From Ferrimonas kyonanensis DSM 18153 (GTDB lineage: Bacteria; Pseudomonadota; Gammaproteobacteria; Enterobacterales; Shewanellaceae): a stretch of 64,000 nucleotides of DNA. Position 1 is the first letter of the stretch; every line of letters starts with the position of its first letter. The DNA is taken from positions 111,437-175,436 of the forward strand of contig NZ_KE384366.1 in assembly GCF_000425405.1 (NCBI RefSeq), written 5' to 3'. Position numbers and translations under genes: made by a program. Below, one piece after another: positions 1 through 46,657 of the stretch. The notes beneath the pieces are model-generated. The model was not told the origin of the DNA, made no database searches, and was given only the letters and a program-made list of their open reading frames with translations.

Positions 1-77
<77 letters not shown>

Positions 78-5139: not shown

Positions 5140-6108
5140 TCAGCCTTTGCTGTGGTAGCCAAGGCAGGTGTCCACTTCGTCGGCGGAGCCGAGAATCACC
5201 GCGACCCGCTGGTGAATCTGTTCTGGCTCGATGGCCATGATGCGCTCGTAACCGGTGGACGCTTTGCCGCCGGCCTGCTCCACCAGGAAGCTCATTGGGT
5301 TGGCTTCATACATCAGACGAAGTTTGAAAGGTTTCTCCGGGTTCTTGGTGTCCTGTGGGTAGGTAAACAGGCCGCCCCGGCTCAGCACTCGGTGCACGTC
5401 GCCCACCATGGCGGCGATCCAGCGCATGTTGAAGTTGCGACCCCGAGGGCCCTCTTTGCCGCTGATCAGGTCGGCGATGTAGTCCTGCATCGGTGCCTGC
5501 CAGAAACGTTGATTGGACATGTTGATGGCAAATTCGCCGGTCTGGGCCGGTACGGTGACCTGTTCGTCCACCAGGACGAATTCATTGCTGGCGGGATCCA
5601 GGCTGTACATCTGGGTGCCCTTGCCGGTGGTCAGTGCCATCACCGTGGCCGGGCCATAGAGGATGTAGCAGGCGCACGGCTGGTTGGTACCCGGCTGCAT
5701 GAAGGCCGCTTCATTGACTTCGCCCTGAGGGGCAGGCAGCACCGAAAAGATGGTGCCGACCAGGGAGTTGATGTCGATGTTGGAGGAGCCGTCCAGTGGG
5801 TCGAAGCACACCAGGTATTGACCATCGGCGTTGGCGGCAACCACGTCGGTTTCCTCTTCGGAGGCAATTCCCTTCACCAGCGGGTTGGCACCGAGTTTGT
5901 CCTTGATCAGATCGTTGGCAATGATGTCCAGTTTCTTCTGAGTCTCACCCTGAACGTTCTCGCTGTCGGCTACCCCCAGCACGCCCGCCAGGGCGCCGCC
6001 TCGAACCAGTTGGCTGATCTCCACGCCACAGTCGGCCAGGGTCAGGATCAATTGTTGTAACTCTGAGGGTAAGCCTTGTAGGCTAAGCGTTTCGCGAAGG
6101 CGCTGCAT
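5140..6108 (-). CDS. fbp: Fructose-1,6-bisphosphatase class I
   Basis: A 322-residue cytosolic gluconeogenic enzyme that converts fructose 1,6-bisphosphate to fructose 6-phosphate. The class I metal-site motif [10 protein letters not shown] is clear (about residues 102-111), preceded by the EEET segment and followed by conserved [13 protein letters not shown] and [18 protein letters not shown]. Length is normal. The ATG has AGGA eight bases upstream. It is probably the first gene of an fbp-ppa unit. A 279-base region upstream separates it from the divergent bactofilin. Confidence 0.97.
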
Positions 6109-6254
6109 GCAGGGGTCCTATCTGAATGATTGGCAGGGTAAATTATCCGCCAATGATAGCGAAAAATCCGCTCTTTTGCAGTGCTACGAAGGGATAATGG
6201 CAAAACCGGCCCCGGGGTGGCGTCGGGGGATACCACCGAGTGAATTTTATTCGC

Positions 6255-6283
6255 TTGTGATGGGCAACAGTTTTGATTATAAC
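6255..6283 (+). promoter_or_regulatory. Candidate promoter for the bactofilin gene
   Basis: TTGTGA (6255-6260) and TATAAC (6278-6283) with a 17-base spacer match sigma-70 at 4 and 5 of 6 positions. The start of transcription would be about 100 bases before the GTG start codon. Confidence 0.45.
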
Positions 6284-6387
6284 GAGTCGCCTATGGGAAG
6301 AGATCTCACTGGCTGAGGATCTCGTTTGTGAGTTAATGCTAGCGCCGCGAACGTTGGTATTCGCATAGATATTGAGGGTGATTAACC

Positions 6388-6783
6388 GTGTTTGGTAAAA
6401 CGAAAAAGAGTCGCGCAGGTTTAACCTATTTTGCGCAATCAACGCGTCTGGAAGGCAGTCTTCATGTTGAAGGCGATTGTGTGGTGGATGGCCATATTAT
6501 CGGCGAATTGACCGCCACCGGCCTGATCGTGGTCGAAAGTGCCGGCATCATCGAGGGCCAGGTTACCGCCGAACAGGTTCAAGTTGAAGGCAAGATTACC
6601 GGTAACCTGGAGTGTCAGCGCCTGACCATTGCCGCCAGCGGTACCGTCGAGGGTGAAATTGTCACCGATAAGATCGAGATCTTTAATGGCGGTCAGTTCA
6701 TCGGTTCCCGAGTGAAAGACAAGCCAAAGCTGCTGGAGAACAAGCAGCCAGAGCTGGAGATTGCCTGCTCCAAAGCCAGTTAA
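6388..6783 (+). CDS. Bactofilin family cytoskeletal protein
   Basis: A 131-residue bactofilin (DUF583/CcmA type). The central part is a run of short beta-helix turns, visible as a regular pattern of Gly/Val/Ile (VVDGHIIGELTATGLIVVES, then EGQVTAEQVQVEGKITGN). The short N-terminal tail is basic and the C-terminus is charged. Members polymerise without nucleotide and localise cell-wall enzymes or other complexes. The start is GTG at 6388, with AGGG about 10 bases upstream. No M23 peptidase, a frequent bactofilin partner, is adjacent. It stands alone between fbp and the peptidase gene. Confidence 0.88.
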   Translation: MFGKTKKSRAGLTYFAQSTRLEGSLHVEGDCVVDGHIIGELTATGLIVVESAGIIEGQVTAEQVQVEGKITGNLECQRLTIAASGTVEGEIVTDKIEIFNGGQFIGSRVKDKPKLLENKQPELEIACSKAS

Positions 6784-6878
6784 GGCTTGAGTCCCGGCCC
6801 GCTCCTCTGAGGGCGGGTTTGTGATTTTGTTCCGCTTTAGCGACAATCCCTCTCATTGTCATATCAGGAATAATAACA

Positions 6879-9068
6879 ATGAGACGGATTCTGTTCACCG
6901 GGCTACTGTGTTGCTCGGCGTGGCTCAGCGCCGAGCCGCTGACCCTGTCCCGTATCGTCAGTGAACCCTCACTGGCGGGCTCTCAACCTTCTAAACCCGC
7001 CCTGTCTCCGGATGGCCAGCGAGTCACCTGGCTGGCGCCTCGTGAAGACGACCTGGAGCGCTACGATCTTTGGCAGTACCAGTTGAGCAGTGGCCAACGC
7101 ACTCGGCTGGTGGATTCGACCCTGTTTGAAGAGGGCGAGCTGTCGGAAGAGGAAAAGGCCCGACGCGAGCGTCAGCGTATCTATGGCAAAGGATTATTGG
7201 AATATCAGTGGGATACCCAGGGCAAGGCGCTGCTGTTTCCCATTGGCGGCGACATCTGGTTGTATCGACTGGCGAGCGGTAAGCCACAACAACTGACTCG
7301 TACCGAGGCGTTTGAAACCGACGCCCGTTTTTCCCCCAAGGGCAACTACGTGTCGTTCATTCGCCAGCAGAACCTGGTGGTGATCGATCTGCGCACCGGC
7401 CAGGAGCAGTTGCTGACACTGGACGGCAAAGGGGCGCTGAAAAACGGCATGTCCGAGTTTGTGGCCCAGGAAGAGATGGACCGCATGAGCGGTTATTGGT
7501 GGTCGCCGGACGAAACCGCCATCGCCTTCCTGCAGGTGGATGAGTCTCCGGTGGAGCAGGTGATTCGCAATGAGATTTTTGCCGATGGCATCAAGCTGAC
7601 GGAGCAGCGATACCCCTATGCCGGTAAGGACAATGCCAGTGTTCGGATTGGGGTAGTCAGCCTGGATGGTGGCGCCATTCAGTGGTTGCCAGGGGCCAGA
7701 GACAACGGCGGCTACCTGCCGCGGGTGAATTGGAATGCCGACGGCAGTGCGGTCACCTGGCAATGGCAAAGCCGCGACCAGCAGACCCTGCAGCTGTGGC
7801 AGTGGCGTAAGGCCGACCAGCGCCGTTCGTTGTTGCTGACCGAGACCAGCCGCAGCTGGATTAACCTCAGTGATGATCTGCATTTCCTGCACTCCCAGCC
7901 CGGGTTTATCTGGAGTTCGGAGCGCAGCGGTTTCCGTCACCTGTACCTGATGGACGATCAGGGCAACCTGGTGCGGCAACTGACCGAGGGTGACTGGGCG
8001 GTGGATGCGGTGGAAGCCATCGACGAAGCCGGTGGCTGGGTCTATTTCAGTGGCCGTCGTGATACGCCGCTGCAGCGGCACCTGTATCGCGTCTCTCTGA
8101 AAGGTGGTGAGGTGCAGCGTCTAAGCCAGAGGGCTGGATTCCACCAGCCGGTATTCAGCGACGACGGCTCGGTGTACCTGGATCATTTCTCCTCCACCCG
8201 GCAACCGCCGCAGCTGAGCTTGCATCAGGCCGATGGCAAAACCATCAGTTGGATTGCCGAAAATGCCATTGAAGGCGATCACCCTCTGGTGCGCTACTGG
8301 AGCGATTGGACCCAACCCGAGTACGGCACCCTCAAGGCCGACAACGGCATGACGCTGTACTACCGGCTGTTCAAGCCGAAGACTCGCCCAGGTCAACGCT
8401 ATCCGGTGGTGGTGCGTGTCTATGGCGGCCCTCATGCCCAGACGGTTCGGGACAGCTGGAGTCGTCACGATTACTTTACTCAGTACCTGGTGCAGCAGGG
8501 ATTTGCCGTCTTTCAATTGGACAACCGGGGTTCGGCCGCTCGCGGATTGGCGTTTGAGAGCGAGATCTACCGGCGTCTGGGTCAGGTCGAGGTGGCCGAT
8601 CAGGTGGTGGGGGCACAGTACCTCAAGAGCCTGTCGTGGGTCGATCCCGACCGCATTGGCATCTATGGCCACAGTTACGGCGGCTACATGACCCTGATGA
8701 GCCTGTTTACCGCGCCGGACTCGTTTGCCGCCGGAGTCTCCGGCGCGCCGGTGACCGATTGGAGCCTGTATGACACCCACTACACCGAGCGTTACCTGGC
8801 CCATCCGGCCAGCAACGCCGAGGGCTATCGTCTGTCGTCGGTCTTTCCCTATGTGGACCAGTTGAAAGGGCAACTGTTTGTGTATCACGGCATGGCCGAT
8901 GACAACGTGTTGTACCAGAACAGCACCAAACTGTATAAGAGCTTGCAGGATGCGGGCAAACTGTATGAGTCCAAAGATTACCCCGGCTCCAAGCACTCCA
9001 TGCGCGGCAAGTCGGTGCAGCTGCACCTGATGGCCACCATCGAGGACTTCTTGAAACGGCGGCTGTAA
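6879..9068 (+). CDS. S9 family peptidase, DPP-IV-like
   Basis: A 729-residue exported serine exopeptidase. An N-terminal signal peptide ends near AEP (about residue 19). Residues about 35-470 form the beta-propeller, including the VAQEEMDRMSGYWWSP segment whose Glu pair binds the substrate N-terminus in dipeptidyl peptidase IV. The C-terminal alpha/beta-hydrolase domain has nucleophile GHSYGGY (Ser599), acid in HGMADDN (Asp674/675) and SKHSM (His706). It should release N-terminal dipeptides, probably Xaa-Pro, from peptides in the periplasm. The ATG follows AGGAATAATAACA. It is monocistronic, ending at a strong terminator. Confidence 0.93.
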   Translation: MRRILFTGLLCCSAWLSAEPLTLSRIVSEPSLAGSQPSKPALSPDGQRVTWLAPREDDLERYDLWQYQLSSGQRTRLVDSTLFEEGELSEEEKARRERQRIYGKGLLEYQWDTQGKALLFPIGGDIWLYRLASGKPQQLTRTEAFETDARFSPKGNYVSFIRQQNLVVIDLRTGQEQLLTLDGKGALKNGMSEFVAQEEMDRMSGYWWSPDETAIAFLQVDESPVEQVIRNEIFADGIKLTEQRYPYAGKDNASVRIGVVSLDGGAIQWLPGARDNGGYLPRVNWNADGSAVTWQWQSRDQQTLQLWQWRKADQRRSLLLTETSRSWINLSDDLHFLHSQPGFIWSSERSGFRHLYLMDDQGNLVRQLTEGDWAVDAVEAIDEAGGWVYFSGRRDTPLQRHLYRVSLKGGEVQRLSQRAGFHQPVFSDDGSVYLDHFSSTRQPPQLSLHQADGKTISWIAENAIEGDHPLVRYWSDWTQPEYGTLKADNGMTLYYRLFKPKTRPGQRYPVVVRVYGGPHAQTVRDSWSRHDYFTQYLVQQGFAVFQLDNRGSAARGLAFESEIYRRLGQVEVADQVVGAQYLKSLSWVDPDRIGIYGHSYGGYMTLMSLFTAPDSFAAGVSGAPVTDWSLYDTHYTERYLAHPASNAEGYRLSSVFPYVDQLKGQLFVYHGMADDNVLYQNSTKLYKSLQDAGKLYESKDYPGSKHSMRGKSVQLHLMATIEDFLKRRL

Positions 9069-9856: not shown

Positions 9857-11188
9857 TTATGCCTTGCGAAGGCTCACCATGACAATGGCTACCGCCGCCA
9901 GCACCATGCAGTACCAGGCGTGGCTGACCACCACCAGGGGGGAGAGCTTAAAGGTGGCGCCGGCCAGCAGTGCCTGGGCACCCCAGGGGATCAGACCTTG
10001 GTTGATGCAGGAGAAGATGTCCAGCATCGAGGCGGCGCGGCGCTTTTTGACGCCGTGGCGCTGAGCCAGGTCCTTGGCTACCGAACCGGTGATGATGATG
10101 GAAACCGTGTTGTTGGCGGTGCACAGGTTGGTGGCAGAGACGATGCCGGCCATCCCCAACTCGGCGGCGCGCGGCGATTGGGCTTTTTTCGAAAAGCGGG
10201 CGATCAGCGCCGCAGCGTTGTCTGCCAGCCAGTTGAGGCCGCCCTGATGCTTCATCAGCGCCGCCAGGCCACCCACCAGCATCGACAGCAGGAAGATCTC
10301 TTGCATGCTGGTGAAACCGGCGTAGATGTCTTTACCCAACTGCATCGGTGCGTAGTCGCCGCCGGCGATGGCGCTGACACCGGCCAGCAGAATGCCTGCC
10401 GGCAGTACCAGGAACACGTTCACGCCGGCGACCGCCAGTACCAGAATGGTGAGGTAGGGCAGCACCTTAATCAGATCGAACGACTGAGCTTCCACCGCAC
10501 TCTGGCCCGAACCGACGACCACAAACAGGATAAAGGTCAGCACGGCGGCCGGGGCCGAGATGCGGATGTTTTCCCGGAACTTGTCTTTCATCTCGCAGCC
10601 CTGGGTGCGAGTGGCAGCGATGGTGGTGTCAGAGATGATCGACAGGTTATCGCCAAACATGGCACCGGAGATCACCGCGCCGGCCATCAGCGCCGGGTCG
10701 ATGCCCGTCTGCTGACAGATGCCATAGGCCACCGGGGCCAGGGCGCCGATGGTGCCCATGGAGGTGCCCATGGAGGTGGCAATGAAGCCGGCGATCAGGA
10801 AGAAGCCGGGCAGCAGCAGCGAGGCGGGGATCAGGGTCAGTCCCAGCGCCACGGTGGCATCCACACCGCCGGTGGCCTTAGCGACGGCGGCAAAGGCGCC
10901 TGCCAGTAAGTAGATCAGACACATGGCGATGATGTTGCTGTCACCAATACCGGCAATGAATTGATTGAGGCTCTTATCCAGGGCCTGGCGTGCCAGGGCA
11001 AGCGCCAACACGATCGCTGGCAGGATGGCGATCACCGGTGACAATTGATAGAAGGCAAACTCGGTGCCCTGGCTCTGGTGGTAGACACCGGCACCGACAA
11101 AGGTGGCCAGGAACAGCAGCAGTGGCAGCAGCGCCACGGCGGAGCGGGAGCGGATCTCAGGGTTGGTTAGGGTTTCGGTCTGACTCAT
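9857..11188 (-). CDS. metT: NhaC-superfamily carrier, probable methionine transporter MetT
   Basis: A 443-residue inner-membrane carrier with about 11-12 hydrophobic segments. It would be annotated by similarity as an NhaC-type Na+/H+ antiporter (motifs GFIATSMGTSMGTIGALAPV and FGDNLSIISDTTIAAT). The upstream region holds tandem MetJ boxes at 11303-11326. In comparative genomics of methionine regulons (Rodionov and colleagues) an NhaC-superfamily protein under MetJ control was proposed as the methionine carrier MetT; by that reasoning this gene imports methionine with sodium. The function is therefore inference from the operator. I chose ATG 11188 (MSQTETL), with AAGAG about 13 bases upstream; the ATG at 11221 has no usable ribosome site. 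It is single-gene, ending at a terminator. Confidence 0.75.
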   Translation of the reverse strand: MSQTETLTNPEIRSRSAVALLPLLLFLATFVGAGVYHQSQGTEFAFYQLSPVIAILPAIVLALALARQALDKSLNQFIAGIGDSNIIAMCLIYLLAGAFAAVAKATGGVDATVALGLTLIPASLLLPGFFLIAGFIATSMGTSMGTIGALAPVAYGICQQTGIDPALMAGAVISGAMFGDNLSIISDTTIAATRTQGCEMKDKFRENIRISAPAAVLTFILFVVVGSGQSAVEAQSFDLIKVLPYLTILVLAVAGVNVFLVLPAGILLAGVSAIAGGDYAPMQLGKDIYAGFTSMQEIFLLSMLVGGLAALMKHQGGLNWLADNAAALIARFSKKAQSPRAAELGMAGIVSATNLCTANNTVSIIITGSVAKDLAQRHGVKKRRAASMLDIFSCINQGLIPWGAQALLAGATFKLSPLVVVSHAWYCMVLAAVAIVMVSLRKA

Positions 11189-43354: not shown

Positions 43355-44167
43355 ATGCAAGGAACCCTGAAAAAGATGCGCAGCCAGTTGGCGGGCGACG
43401 TCGACTACACCCTGTTGGTGGGCGAGGAAGCCCTGCCGTTAAATGACGTTATTGGCCAGTCGCTGACCCTGGAGCACACCGGCAACATCTTCTGCGATGC
43501 CTGTGGCCGCAAGACCAACAAGAGTTATTCTCAAGGGCATTGTTTTCCCTGTATGAAAAAGCTGGCCCGGTGTGACATGTGCATCATGAAGCCAGAGACC
43601 TGTCATTTTGCCGCTGGCACCTGCCGGGAGCCGGAGTGGGGCGAAGCCCAGTGCATGGTGCCTCACTACGTCTACCTGTCTAACACCTCGGGCCTGAAGG
43701 TGGGCATCACTCGACACACGCAATTGCCGACACGCTGGATCGATCAGGGTGCCACTCAGGGGCTGCCGATCATTCGAGTGCGCAGCCGATACATCTCCGG
43801 GTTGGTGGAGGTGGCGTTGGGGGCGTTCATCAACGACAAGACCAACTGGCGGGCGATGCTCAAAGGCAATAACGACGATCTGGACCTCAAGGCCCAGGCG
43901 CACTGTTTGTTGCCGAAGATTGAGGAGAAACTGGCGGCCATTCGCGCTGAGTTCGGTGACGATGCCTATGAGATTCTGGACGAATCCATCGTCGCCATCG
44001 ATTACCCGGTGAAGCAGTTTCCGGTAAAGGTGGCATCCCACAACTTCGACAAGACCCCGTTGGTGTCCGGCATTCTGTTGGGCATAAAGGGCCAGTATCT
44101 GATCTTCGATACCGGTGTGATCAACATTCGTAAGTTCACCGGTTACGAGGTCCGCGTCAGTCGCTGA
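43355..44167 (+). CDS. DUF2797 protein with zinc-type Cys motifs
   Basis: A 270-residue protein of the DUF2797 family. Residues about 48-95 contain seven Cys in four pairs (CDAC, CFPC, CDMC, then C...C), suggesting zinc binding. HYVYLSNTSGLKVGITR about residue 107 resembles the first motif of GIY-YIG nucleases (Y-V-Y and K-V-G-I-T-R), but the catalytic Glu is not obvious. No function is known. No signal peptide. It ends at a hairpin and stands alone. Confidence 0.78.
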   Translation: MQGTLKKMRSQLAGDVDYTLLVGEEALPLNDVIGQSLTLEHTGNIFCDACGRKTNKSYSQGHCFPCMKKLARCDMCIMKPETCHFAAGTCREPEWGEAQCMVPHYVYLSNTSGLKVGITRHTQLPTRWIDQGATQGLPIIRVRSRYISGLVEVALGAFINDKTNWRAMLKGNNDDLDLKAQAHCLLPKIEEKLAAIRAEFGDDAYEILDESIVAIDYPVKQFPVKVASHNFDKTPLVSGILLGIKGQYLIFDTGVINIRKFTGYEVRVSR

Positions 44168-44190
44168 TCTCGGGACTCGAAACCCACAAC

Positions 44191-44218
44191 ACGCCGGCCC
44201 ATGAGGGCCGGCGTTTTT
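44191..44218 (+). terminator. Terminator after the DUF2797 gene
   Basis: ACGCCGGCCC-ATGA-GGGCCGGCGTTTTT: a perfect 10-base stem and T tract. Confidence 0.92.
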
Positions 44219-44345
44219 CATTCTGCCTGTCATTTTGCAACGAGGCCGCCACCGCGCAAAACCCAGATAACTATTTCAATGACTTACTAGTTGGCACGGG
44301 GTTTGAATAGTCTGAGCATGGTTTTCTGAATGTGCCGAGGTGGTG

Positions 44346-45953
44346 ATGGACAAACTGGTGGTGTTTACCTCCGAGCTGGATTTTTGTCTGTGCAAGACAC
44401 TGGTGCAGTTGTTGGAGCAGTACCCCAAGCTGCAGCTGCTGGTGTTGAGACAGCCAGCCACCGCCGTTTGGGCCTCACAGTGGCGTCGGCCGACACCGCA
44501 TTGGTCGCAGTGTCGCTGGCCTTTGAACTCGCCCTCACCGTTGGCGGATACCCTCAACCGGTACGATCCGGGCCGACTTCGTCATCATCCGCGGGTTCAG
44601 TTCAAGGTGGTGGACGACATTAACTCACTGAGGATCAGAGTGTTGGTGGAGCAGTATCAGGCGGATCTCGGGCTGTCTTACGGCGATCTGTCGTTACGGC
44701 CGGCTCTGCACCAGTTACCGCATTGGGGCACGCTGGCCATTCAGTTGGGTGCAGCCTTTGATGAGGGTCGGGATGCGCTGTTCTGGGCCCTGTGGGAGCA
44801 AAAGCCGAGCGTGACCATCCGCGTGCAGCGACTGGAACCTGACCACCGACCGGCGTCGATTCTGCTGCAGACGGAGCTGGCGCTGTCCGCCTACAGCAGT
44901 GAGCGCGGGCTTCAGATTCAGCTGGAGGAGTGCCTGATTCAGATGCTGTGTGGTGCCGTGGGGATGATCAGTTGCGAAGAGATGGTGCGTCATTCCCAGG
45001 AACCTCTGCCCCGGCGTAAGAAGGTGCCCAGTTTGCAGCAGCGTCGGCAACTGCAGCAACAGCGGCGCTGGGTCTCTCTTCAGAGTGGGTTGCGTACTCG
45101 AATGAAGTCGCTGTTTTTTCAAGGGTACAGCCATGTCTGGCGACCGTTATGGCGTGGCCTTGCCGGTTTTCGAGGCTGCCAACGGGTGGTGGTGCTGGCG
45201 TATCACCGGGTCAACGACGACCTTAGGGACAGCTTGACTGTGGGTATCGAGCAGTTTGAGCATCAAATGGCCATGGTGGCCCGTCACTGTACCCCGGTGT
45301 CTCTGCCCAGCCTGATGGCCGGCAACATTCCCAAGGATGCGGCCAAACCCCTGGTGGCGATCAGCTTCGATGATGGATATCTGGATAATCACGACAATGC
45401 GGTGCCGGTGCTGGAGCGACACGGCATTCCGGCGACCTTTTTCGTCAGTACTGCCATGATCGGCAGCAACCAACCGTTTCAACATGATCTGGATGCTCTG
45501 GGGCGCGGCTTGCCGACCATGACCTGGGCTCAACTGACTAGCATGCAGCAGCGAGGATTTACCATCGGTGCTCACACCCAGACTCATCTCAATTGTGCCA
45601 AGGCATCGTTCTCAAAGGTGGTGGCCGAACTGCAGGCCAGCAAACGGCAGCTGGAGCATCACCTGGGGGCATCAGACGTGCTGTTTGCCTATCCGTTTGG
45701 CAAAGCGTCTGACATTAACGATGCGGTGATGGCACAGGTAAAGGCGTTGGGATTCCGGGGGTGTGTCTCCTGTCATGGAGGCACCAACGAGGGCCGCATC
45801 GACCCCTTTGATGTCAAACGCATGGGGGTGGACGCCAACTGCAGTGACGTGGCGTTCAGGGCGATGATCGAGGGATTTTGTCCGCCGAGGCTGAAAGCCA
45901 GGCCCGAGAAACGGATGTCGCGGCTGCCCAACGCCGCCACTCCACCGATTTAG
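44346..45953 (+). CDS. NodB deacetylase with degenerate formyltransferase-like N-terminus
   Basis: A 535-residue protein. Residues about 281-500 are a polysaccharide-deacetylase (NodB) domain with intact motifs AISFDDGY (Asp342, Asp343) and HTQTH (His410, His414) plus YPFGK. Residues 85-180 resemble a formyltransferase fold: LGLSYGDLSLRP, then GTLAIQLGAAFDEGRDALFW, SVTIRV, but the usual HPSLLP catalytic His segment is lost. The two halves are joined by a basic Gln/Arg-rich linker (residues 220-260). ArnA-formyltransferase and ArnD-deformylase activities on lipid A sugars are the nearest known logic. The function is unproven. It has no signal peptide. GAGG lies 5 bases before the ATG. Confidence 0.7.
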   Translation: MDKLVVFTSELDFCLCKTLVQLLEQYPKLQLLVLRQPATAVWASQWRRPTPHWSQCRWPLNSPSPLADTLNRYDPGRLRHHPRVQFKVVDDINSLRIRVLVEQYQADLGLSYGDLSLRPALHQLPHWGTLAIQLGAAFDEGRDALFWALWEQKPSVTIRVQRLEPDHRPASILLQTELALSAYSSERGLQIQLEECLIQMLCGAVGMISCEEMVRHSQEPLPRRKKVPSLQQRRQLQQQRRWVSLQSGLRTRMKSLFFQGYSHVWRPLWRGLAGFRGCQRVVVLAYHRVNDDLRDSLTVGIEQFEHQMAMVARHCTPVSLPSLMAGNIPKDAAKPLVAISFDDGYLDNHDNAVPVLERHGIPATFFVSTAMIGSNQPFQHDLDALGRGLPTMTWAQLTSMQQRGFTIGAHTQTHLNCAKASFSKVVAELQASKRQLEHHLGASDVLFAYPFGKASDINDAVMAQVKALGFRGCVSCHGGTNEGRIDPFDVKRMGVDANCSDVAFRAMIEGFCPPRLKARPEKRMSRLPNAATPPI

Positions 45954-46162
45954 GGAAGGCCCGCGCAGAGGGTTCGATAAGCATGCAGTAGCCGGAGCCG
46001 ACGGTGTCGGCTGAGTTGAGAACTCAATCTTAAGGAGGAGGGAATTTGTCCGTTTATCCAGTCTCAGAACTGCAGGGGGCGCGGCAATGCTGAATGCCGT
46101 GATGCCCTGAACCGTCAAGAGGAGGCCAATGAATCGTTAGCGTCAATACCATCCTGCTTTAT
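45954..46162. other. Long untranslated 3' region with three mini-frames
   Basis: No recognisable gene in the stretch before the hairpin at 46163. AAGGAGGAGGG (46033-46043) precedes a TTG frame of 15 codons (SVYPVSELQG...), GGGGGCG precedes ATG CTG AAT (7 codons), and AGAGGAGG precedes ATG AAT CGT stop. I see no structured RNA that I can name. Confidence 0.35.
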
Positions 46163-46187
46163 AGCCGCCGCCTGGCGGCTTCTTTTT
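46163..46187 (+). terminator. Terminator of the deacetylase transcript
   Basis: AGCCGCC-GCCT-GGCGGCT followed by TCTTTTTG. Confidence 0.75.
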
Positions 46188-46235
46188 GAGTGCGGCTGCC
46201 AGGTTGCCGCCATCAATGGCCATCATTTCCAGCCA

Positions 46236-46266
46236 CAAAAAAAGCCGCCATCGGGCGGCTTTTTTC
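46236..46266. terminator. Second, bidirectional terminator
   Basis: AAAAAAAGCCGCC-ATCG-GGCGGCTTTTTT; serves the leftward DUF469 gene whose stop is 14 bases away and backs up the first hairpin. Confidence 0.88.
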
Positions 46267-46279
46267 AAGACCGAAGGCC

Positions 46280-46657
46280 TTAGTTCTGGAAGGTGGCATC
46301 CCAGTCGCCGTAGTTCTCGTCACCGGCAAAGATGGTCAGCTCAGGCTGGCTGCCCAGGGTGGCTTCGATCAGCGCGGCGATGCGAGCGGCCTGCTCTTCG
46401 ATGTTGGCTTCGGCAGTAAAGAAGTGGATGGCCACATGATACTGGTTATTGAAGTAGGCCAGGAAGGTGCCCACGGTGTCATTGGCGGCGTTAAATACGG
46501 CTTCGTCCAGCTTTTCGAACAGTGCAATGTCGCCGTCGAAACGGATGTGAACGCAGGTGGAAGCGAACTCACCGATGGCCAGCTTTTTCAGGTGGCGAGG
46601 TTTGTGGTGACGCTTGACTTCCGGTTTCGGGAATTCGGCAACGGCGGTAATGTTCAT
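46280..46657 (-). CDS. DUF469 (YggL-like) protein
   Basis: A 125-residue small protein. KRHHKPRHLKKLAIGEFA followed by a hydrophobic strand and a helical DIALFEKLDEAV is similar to YggL of the DUF469 family, a ribosome-associated protein in E. coli. The similarity is partial, with a longer N-terminus here, so the family call is moderate. The start at 46657 follows GAGACAGAG. It lies alone between two terminators. Confidence 0.55.
   Translation of the reverse strand: MNITAVAEFPKPEVKRHHKPRHLKKLAIGEFASTCVHIRFDGDIALFEKLDEAVFNAANDTVGTFLAYFNNQYHVAIHFFTAEANIEEQAARIAALIEATLGSQPELTIFAGDENYGDWDATFQN

Follow-up and report, generated by a model that had tools for sequence, protein, structure and literature searches.

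Eukaryotic N-deacetylase/N-sulfotransferases (NDSTs) combine in a single polypeptide the deacetylation of a hexosamine and the renewed capping of its amine. In bacteria, the deacetylases PgaB and IcaB are described, in PMC10967932, as NodB2, a circularly permuted subtype with the motif order MT5-MT1-MT2-MT3, in which MT5 (VLMYH) precedes MT1, MT3 reads AYPYG and the arginine comes from elsewhere in the sequence; the same source describes ArnD as NodB1-like and places it in a new family. Here we analyse a gene in a 64,000-nucleotide stretch of the genome of Ferrimonas kyonanensis DSM 18153 (contig NZ_KE384366.1, positions 111,437 to 175,436), which is referred to below as the window and to which coordinates refer unless a locus is named. 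The protein combines a NodB2-type deacetylase domain with an N-terminal formyltransferase-like half in which three catalytic positions have been lost. We put at roughly 0.6 the probability that it is an orphan, lineage-specific descendant of a formyltransferase-NodB2 bifunctional enzyme and is now a plain deacetylase, its dead half having a structural or docking role.

Homology and predicted fold of the two halves

The coding sequence lies on the forward strand, has near-full-length homologues, and runs from an ATG at 44346 to 45950 (535 residues), the stop codon ending at 45953. It encodes a formyltransferase-like, Rossmann-type half (residues 1-230, 44346-45035), a poorly conserved linker (residues 231-278, 45036-45179), residues 242-277 of which are mostly of low confidence in the predicted model, and a NodB2-type deacetylase domain with its motifs kept (residues 279-505, 45180-45860).

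Family scans report just 'polysaccharide deacetylase' here, and the first 265 residues have no match to any Pfam or NCBIfam model, even at E values up to 10. At the sequence level the sole hint came from the PDB, where residues 138-181 resemble, below significance, the formylation domain of LgrA, a linear gramicidin synthetase (E 0.38-1.1), all ten of the chains listed being that one protein. The homology of this half becomes apparent through relatives. A contig search with an alignment of NodB relatives (A1) gave at least 566 relatives, and six of the best 80 also span the N-terminal half. The matches of four, L084 (BroJett031), L085 (Massilia norwichensis), L086 (Pelomonas sp. KK5) and L087 (Rubrivivax sp.), span nearly the whole protein, with E values of 3e-107 (residues 1-512), 1e-95, 5e-83 and 1e-73, respectively; L095 (residues 57-452, 6e-31) and L097 (residues 3-481, 4e-29) are more distant. 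A profile of the relatives plus the window protein (A2) added one further fusion, in genome G1147, among 369 genomes of the class, so that at least two of these, the window's own included, carry it, mostly three candidates having been scored per genome.

All seven relatives match both PF00551 (Formyl_trans_N) and PF01522; by transitivity, the N-terminal half of the window protein is therefore homologous to formyltransferases. The PF00551 matches of L084-L087 have E values of 8.5e-10 to 2.7e-18, and the intact relatives, at 39-67 bits, exceed its cut-off of 26.1. In the PDB, Fmt (E 8e-18), ArnA and WbkC are matched by a profile of the window protein and six intact relatives (A3). The window protein thus belongs with Formyl_trans_N through its relatives and its predicted fold, without a direct scan match, and, having both domains in colinear homology, with the formyltransferase-NodB fusions. 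The original prediction had recognized this half by eye; the profile match that would have supported it directly was not obtained, and the link to the family stands through the relatives.

AlphaFold, given a 7-row alignment, models the window protein (mean pLDDT 72.7, pTM 0.65) with two domains, a Rossmann-type N-terminal domain and a NodB C-terminal domain, with low confidence at the rim of the former active site (residues 137-141). In Foldseek comparisons the N-terminal half matches ArnA, Fmt and WbkC (E 1e-8 to about 1e-6), ArnA being the top formyltransferase match (5j63, E 1e-8), and for the deacetylase half the best PDB folds include PplD, PgaB and IcaB; a model of the intact L084 protein gave the same two kinds of match. 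The predicted fold is thus Rossmann-like, as had been proposed.

The C-terminal half is a NodB/CE4-type deacetylase with DD, HxxxH and YPxG motifs, matching PF01522 over residues 332-471 (E 6.2e-26, 91.2 bits against a cut-off of 23.1). Its motifs occur in the order VVLAYH287, FDD343, HTQTH414, AYPFG452 and R492, i.e. MT5 with His287 (VLAYH, 45204-45206) comes first, as in NodB2 (PMC10967932), followed by MT1 with Asp342-Asp343 (FDDG, 45369-45374), MT2 with the metal ligands His410-x3-His414 (HTQTH, 45573-45587) and MT3 with Pro450 (AYPFG, 45693-45695). Arg492 (45819-45821) is invariant in alignment A2 and is probably the arginine that NodB2 proteins supply from elsewhere in the sequence. The motifs of this domain are kept, in line with the original statement that its metal and catalytic residues are all present. 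The PgaB/IcaB equivalog models are far from reached (TIGR03938, 51.3 against 321.9 bits; TIGR03933, 44.3 against 248.35 bits), and the top NCBIfam match of the whole protein, HfsH (NF050820, E 2.8e-14), concerns the NodB part and scores 53.4 bits against a cut-off of 400.

Loss of catalytic residues and divergence of the halves

The N-x-H and D-x-G motifs, the Asn, His and Asp of which we take to be catalytic from work on Fmt and ArnA, are kept in all seven relatives. The two segments read GTLNLHKGKVPEYRG and LDTG in L084 and L087, with small differences in L085, L086 (LDQG) and G1147, and GSINIHKRKVPDYRG and VDVG in L095 and L097. In the window protein they read GTLAIQLGAAFDEG and HRPA; Ala131 and Gln133 (44736-44744) stand in alignment with the Asn and His of the relatives (N-L-H or N-I-H), and Arg168 (44847-44849) with the Asp. 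The protein does not, therefore, have the Asn-x-His and Asp-x-Gly of an active N10-formyl-tetrahydrofolate formyltransferase. That GTLAIQLGAAFDEG replaces a segment of the HPSLLP type had been noticed in the original prediction and is borne out by the homologues; the loss of the Asp of D-x-G had not.

Comparison with the five beta/gamma relatives (L084-L087 and G1147) reveals that fast evolution is confined to the formyltransferase half. In its core (residues 85-205, the part that aligns best), the window protein is 26-31% identical to the five, which are 46-59% identical among themselves, whereas the corresponding NodB values are 41-52% and 37-66%. The window protein keeps 15 of the 39 core residues that are invariant in the five, and for NodB the count is 51 of 58; in controls with each relative left out in turn, 39/39 to 39/46 and 58/59 to 58/77, respectively, are kept; for residues invariant in all seven relatives the counts are 8/22 and 30/36. 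The tip branch leading to the window protein is 1.99 substitutions per site in the core, against 0.29-0.48 for the five relatives, and 0.58 in NodB, against 0.22-0.53, the ranges excluding L095 and L097, which are sisters on a long stem. Tip branches and invariant counts together indicate that constraint was dropped mainly in the formyltransferase half.

Of the 34 all-hydrophobic columns of the core, 31 are still hydrophobic in the window protein (background 0.48; controls 35/35 to 35/38), and none of the eight invariant polar residues (Gly and Pro excluded) is retained; in NodB, 53 of 56 hydrophobic columns and 14 of 15 invariant polar residues are kept. Indels in the core amount to one deletion, of a single residue, and the G+C content at third codon positions is 0.73 in the formyltransferase half and 0.70 in NodB. 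This pattern matches what a fold retained without catalysis would give, which suggests that the N-terminal half is probably a pseudoenzyme with its fold kept.

Gene context of the intact relatives

In all four betaproteobacterial loci (L084-L087) the fusion gene lies downstream of exosortase A, adjacent to it in L084 and L085 and about 1.3-1.4 kb away in L086 and L087, and directly 5' of a TIGR03088-like glycosyltransferase gene, which was identified by NCBIfam in L085 and is 39-44% identical to that of L085 in the other three. An asparagine-synthase-like gene is present in the same stretch of all four. NCBIfam confirmed exosortase A in the three loci scanned (L085-L087), the exosortase of L084 being identified by tblastn only. 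By NCBIfam, L085 and L087 also have the XrtA deacetylase, and L085 has the XrtA ATPase as well; L086 has an amidotransferase that falls under the TIGR03108 cut-off (542.7 against 816.9 bits). The context of these four intact relatives is thus that of an exopolysaccharide locus.

With respect to XrtA/PEP-CTERM exopolysaccharide loci themselves, the fusion, at about 6001-7605 in each of L084-L087, is a conserved and apparently undescribed gene.

In G1147 the fusion is followed by a family-4 glycosyltransferase gene (30% identical to that of L085) and an asparagine-synthase-type gene. Altogether, exosortase A loci account for four of the seven intact fusions, and one more is in a genome with exosortase A. 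Transposase genes flank the G1147 stretch that contains the fusion, glycosyltransferase and asparagine-synthase-like genes (locus L189, 1981-3324 by Pfam and 10173-11183 by eye), which fits horizontal spread.

Distribution of the fusion

A profile search of genome contigs with the window protein alone found nothing. Among the matches listed for the order (394 genomes), the phylum (398 genomes) and the class (229 genomes), none outside the window's own genome covers the N-terminal half, and among 152 genomes of the family this half was matched in one other genome, the congener G009; that match (L005) and one in the window's own genome (L003) were dropped as noise, both being antisense to open reading frames (ORFs) that by eye resemble cobalamin-synthesis genes. 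In a survey of 148 family genomes the fusion was present in one, the window's own, and 134 had a match, nearly always covering NodB only, in frames mostly similar in length to L002, a second NodB protein of the window's own genome (C10:155956-156528, reverse strand). L002 is a 364-residue frame, 35% identical to the window protein over residues 281-477, with an apparent signal peptide by eye. One family match spans positions 94-241 in a 668-residue frame of G014 and was taken as ArnA.

The N-terminal half gave chance-level tblastn matches only in plasmids and phages (three and one records, E 1 to 10), none of the 116 plasmid records matched by the whole protein covers over 80% of its length, and a scan of viral contigs yielded one locus, matched in its NodB part only. 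A home-made profile for the split arrangement, i.e. a formyltransferase gene beside a NodB gene, matched 7 of 82 loci, which are the seven fusions themselves. Long NodB ORFs in the class (11 loci and five stretches, viewed in part by eye) had no visible formyltransferase; those viewed were either GC-rich open frames or fusions of the glycosyltransferase or repeat type, and two stretches lacked an ORF. A stand-alone NodB protein in G608 (L190, 8641-9468) is very near the NodB half of the fusion family (E 4e-65) and lacks a formyltransferase domain; its gene lies ~6 kb from an ORF that by eye is of NodU-like carbamoyltransferase type.

A PF00551 search of 150 phylum genomes was uninformative for fusions among the matches listed, which were the strong ones. 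PF00551 ORFs of 575-625 residues in the window's own genome and four congeners were rejected as fusions and assigned to the HypX type: L040, from the window's own genome (5921-7657), has on scanning Formyl_trans_C (PF02911) and an enoyl-CoA-hydratase domain, and L041-L044, from the congeners, resemble it by eye. HypX-type proteins appear as weak PF00551 matches in long ORFs and are easily confused with a new formyltransferase fusion.

The window gene and its surroundings

The window gene is an orphan, specific to its species among those searched, and does not belong to an exosortase A locus; its genome has no exosortase by PF09721 or TIGR03109. The ten neighbours scanned encode an esterase, a zinc-type alcohol dehydrogenase, a LysR regulator, DUF1040 and DUF2797 proteins, a 125-residue protein without a family, PyrI, PyrB, DbpA and a class-III aminotransferase; these are housekeeping or unassigned genes, and none is for polysaccharides or lipid A, the latter in keeping with the earlier observation. 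The genome encodes three PF00551 proteins, which we take to be PurN (217 residues), Fmt (317 residues) and HypX (579 residues, L040). No protein that would make a formylated sugar was therefore seen in the genome, although a degenerate one would escape PF00551.

The site between the DUF2797 gene and the 125-residue gene (44165-46282) is variable among congeners. Seven of 13 congeners were compared: five (L205-L209) retain both flanking genes and two (L210 and L211) show DUF2797 only. The gap is nearly empty in L207; by eye, L205 and L206 have large cytochrome-like ORFs there, and L208 and L209 a small ORF of outer-membrane type. The restriction of the window gene to this species, among those searched, would most simply be due to horizontal transfer from a bacterium with an intact fusion. 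An exact 14-nucleotide direct repeat flanks the gene (44027-44040 and 46290-46303); it is probably due to chance, since the right copy is present in all five congeners checked (0-2 mismatches), including the nearly empty L207.

A Shine-Dalgarno-like GAGGTGG (44337-44343, forward strand) precedes the ATG, its GAGG ending 5 nucleotides 5' of it, and an in-frame GTG at 44340 is a possible alternative start. Intrinsic-terminator-like hairpins, both on the forward strand, lie 3' of the DUF2797 gene and upstream of the fusion gene (44191-44214) and downstream of the fusion gene (46163-46180); such hairpins are weak evidence, three sites having been found against 2.4 expected from shuffles. No sigma-70-like promoter was found. 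A tRNA-Pro (TGG) gene lies at the edge of the window (1-77, reverse strand).

Discussion

Since three catalytic positions of the formyltransferase half are gone, while its fold is seemingly kept and the NodB motifs are intact, the window protein is most likely a plain N-deacetylase. Our proposal starts from the intact relatives, in which the NodB half would deacetylate an N-acetyl-hexosamine in a cytoplasmic precursor that is linked to a nucleotide or a lipid, after which the formyltransferase half would formylate the freed amine from N10-formyl-tetrahydrofolate, resulting in an acetyl-to-formyl swap. The window protein would carry out deacetylation only, as a presumably cytoplasmic amino-sugar N-deacetylase, and may retain its dead half as a scaffold, i.e. 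as a structural or docking module. In this respect the original prediction of a NodB deacetylase fused to a catalytically dead formyltransferase-fold domain holds, with the PF01522 match, the PF00551 matches of the relatives and Ala131, Gln133 and Arg168 in its support. Its further claim that the pairing is undescribed holds insofar as we found no paper describing it, which is weak evidence, as the search was of the open literature and subscription papers mostly fell outside it; the pairing is not unique to this window, seven intact fusions having been found.

Several points weigh against our proposal. The acetyl-to-formyl swap is drawn solely from the pairing of domains, and no biochemistry was found for any member of the fusion family. 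The window gene has no polysaccharide genes as neighbours that would point to a pathway of its own; the exosortase A of G1147 is on a different contig from the fusion, and the stretches available for L095 (13 kb) and L097 (9 kb) contain none of the exosortase-locus genes. The Foldseek matches to formyltransferases have modest TM-scores (about 0.5-0.6 by target length), and the window model is not independent evidence of the fold, because intact relatives were in its alignment. Branch lengths were fitted to a fixed tree with support of 42-49 at three internal branches and 100 at two, and the hydrophobic-column figure is a raw count, without significance computed. As the dead version is known from one genome, a recent drift toward loss may also be what is seen.

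A more far-reaching version of the proposal, which we hold tentatively and at less than even odds, is that the intact relatives are undescribed bifunctional N-deacetylase/N-formyltransferases, a formyl counterpart of NDST, working in XrtA/PEP-CTERM exopolysaccharide pathways, and that the window protein is such an enzyme with one site off, its fold having been selected as a docking or allosteric module and its product being left with a free amine.

Rather unlikely is neutral decay, in which the formyltransferase half would have no role and be rotting, its frame preserved solely for the sake of translating NodB behind it. The long core branch (1.99 substitutions per site against 0.29-0.48), the retention of only 15 of 39 beta/gamma core invariants and the presence of the gene in one species of the family, at a site variable in congeners, are what decay would produce. 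It accounts poorly for the 31 of 34 hydrophobic columns kept against a background of 0.48, for a core with a single one-residue deletion and no insertion, and with third-position G+C similar to that of NodB, and for the Rossmann-type order that the model, as a prediction, retains.

Unlikely, too, in our judgement, is that the dead half has acquired a new binding task, such as recruitment to a membrane complex or sensing of a nucleotide sugar, with the NodB substrate lying outside exopolysaccharide pathways. A seemingly kept fold with its invariant polar residues replaced would suit such a role, as would the lone position of the gene at a variable site, between two terminator-like hairpins, but direct evidence is lacking and none of the ten scanned neighbours suggests a partner.

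Least probable is the original proposal of an ArnA/ArnD-like pair in one chain, the dead half binding a formylated amino sugar which the NodB half deformylates: a formyltransferase and a NodB-like deformylase do both act in the Arn pathway (PMC12650200 and PMC10967932), and ArnA is the best formyltransferase match in Foldseek, but the window NodB is of the NodB2 (PgaB/IcaB) type and ArnD is NodB1-like, none of the eight invariant polar residues survives in the half that should bind the sugar, the three PF00551 proteins of the genome, taken as PurN, Fmt and HypX, include no apparent maker of a formylated sugar, lipid A genes are absent among the ten neighbours, four of the seven intact relatives are in exopolysaccharide rather than lipid A loci, and, as regards the intact family, a formyltransferase and a deformylase acting in one chain on one substrate would be futile, which makes an Arn-type order less likely.

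If our proposal of a former bifunctional enzyme is correct, N-formyl hexosamines made by one two-headed enzyme should be present in the exopolysaccharides of some bacteria with an exosortase (Massilia, Rubrivivax and others), and the window protein would show that one head can be lost and its fold retained. Comparison of the intact and window forms would then distinguish what the formyltransferase half contributes as a catalyst from what it contributes as a structure.

The closest systems to the window protein are the intact formyltransferase-NodB fusions, which have the same two domains in the same order and are colinear with it, but keep N-x-H and D-x-G and, in L084-L087, lie in exosortase A loci, whereas the window gene stands alone. 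PgaB, IcaB and PplD share the motif order MT5-MT1-MT2-MT3 and are the best PDB matches for the C-terminal half, but lack a formyltransferase domain; PgaB, furthermore, is a periplasmic lipoprotein, whereas no signal peptide is seen by eye in the window protein. The oligosaccharide deacetylase HfsH resembles it in the NodB part, far under the cut-off, and likewise has no formyltransferase half. The formyltransferase domain of ArnA, Fmt and WbkC have the fold of the N-terminal half, and the intact relatives exceed the PF00551 cut-off, but the window protein lacks both the catalytic Asn, His and Asp and a direct PF00551 match. ArnD is also a NodB-type hydrolase in a pathway with a formyltransferase, differing in being NodB1-like; the window gene does not belong to the ArnA/ArnD lipid A system, there being no arn genes among the ten neighbours and nothing as large as ArnA among the PF00551 proteins of the genome. 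Finally, NDST follows the logic that we propose for the intact relatives, with a sulfotransferase in place of the formyltransferase, although homology over the whole protein is not claimed.

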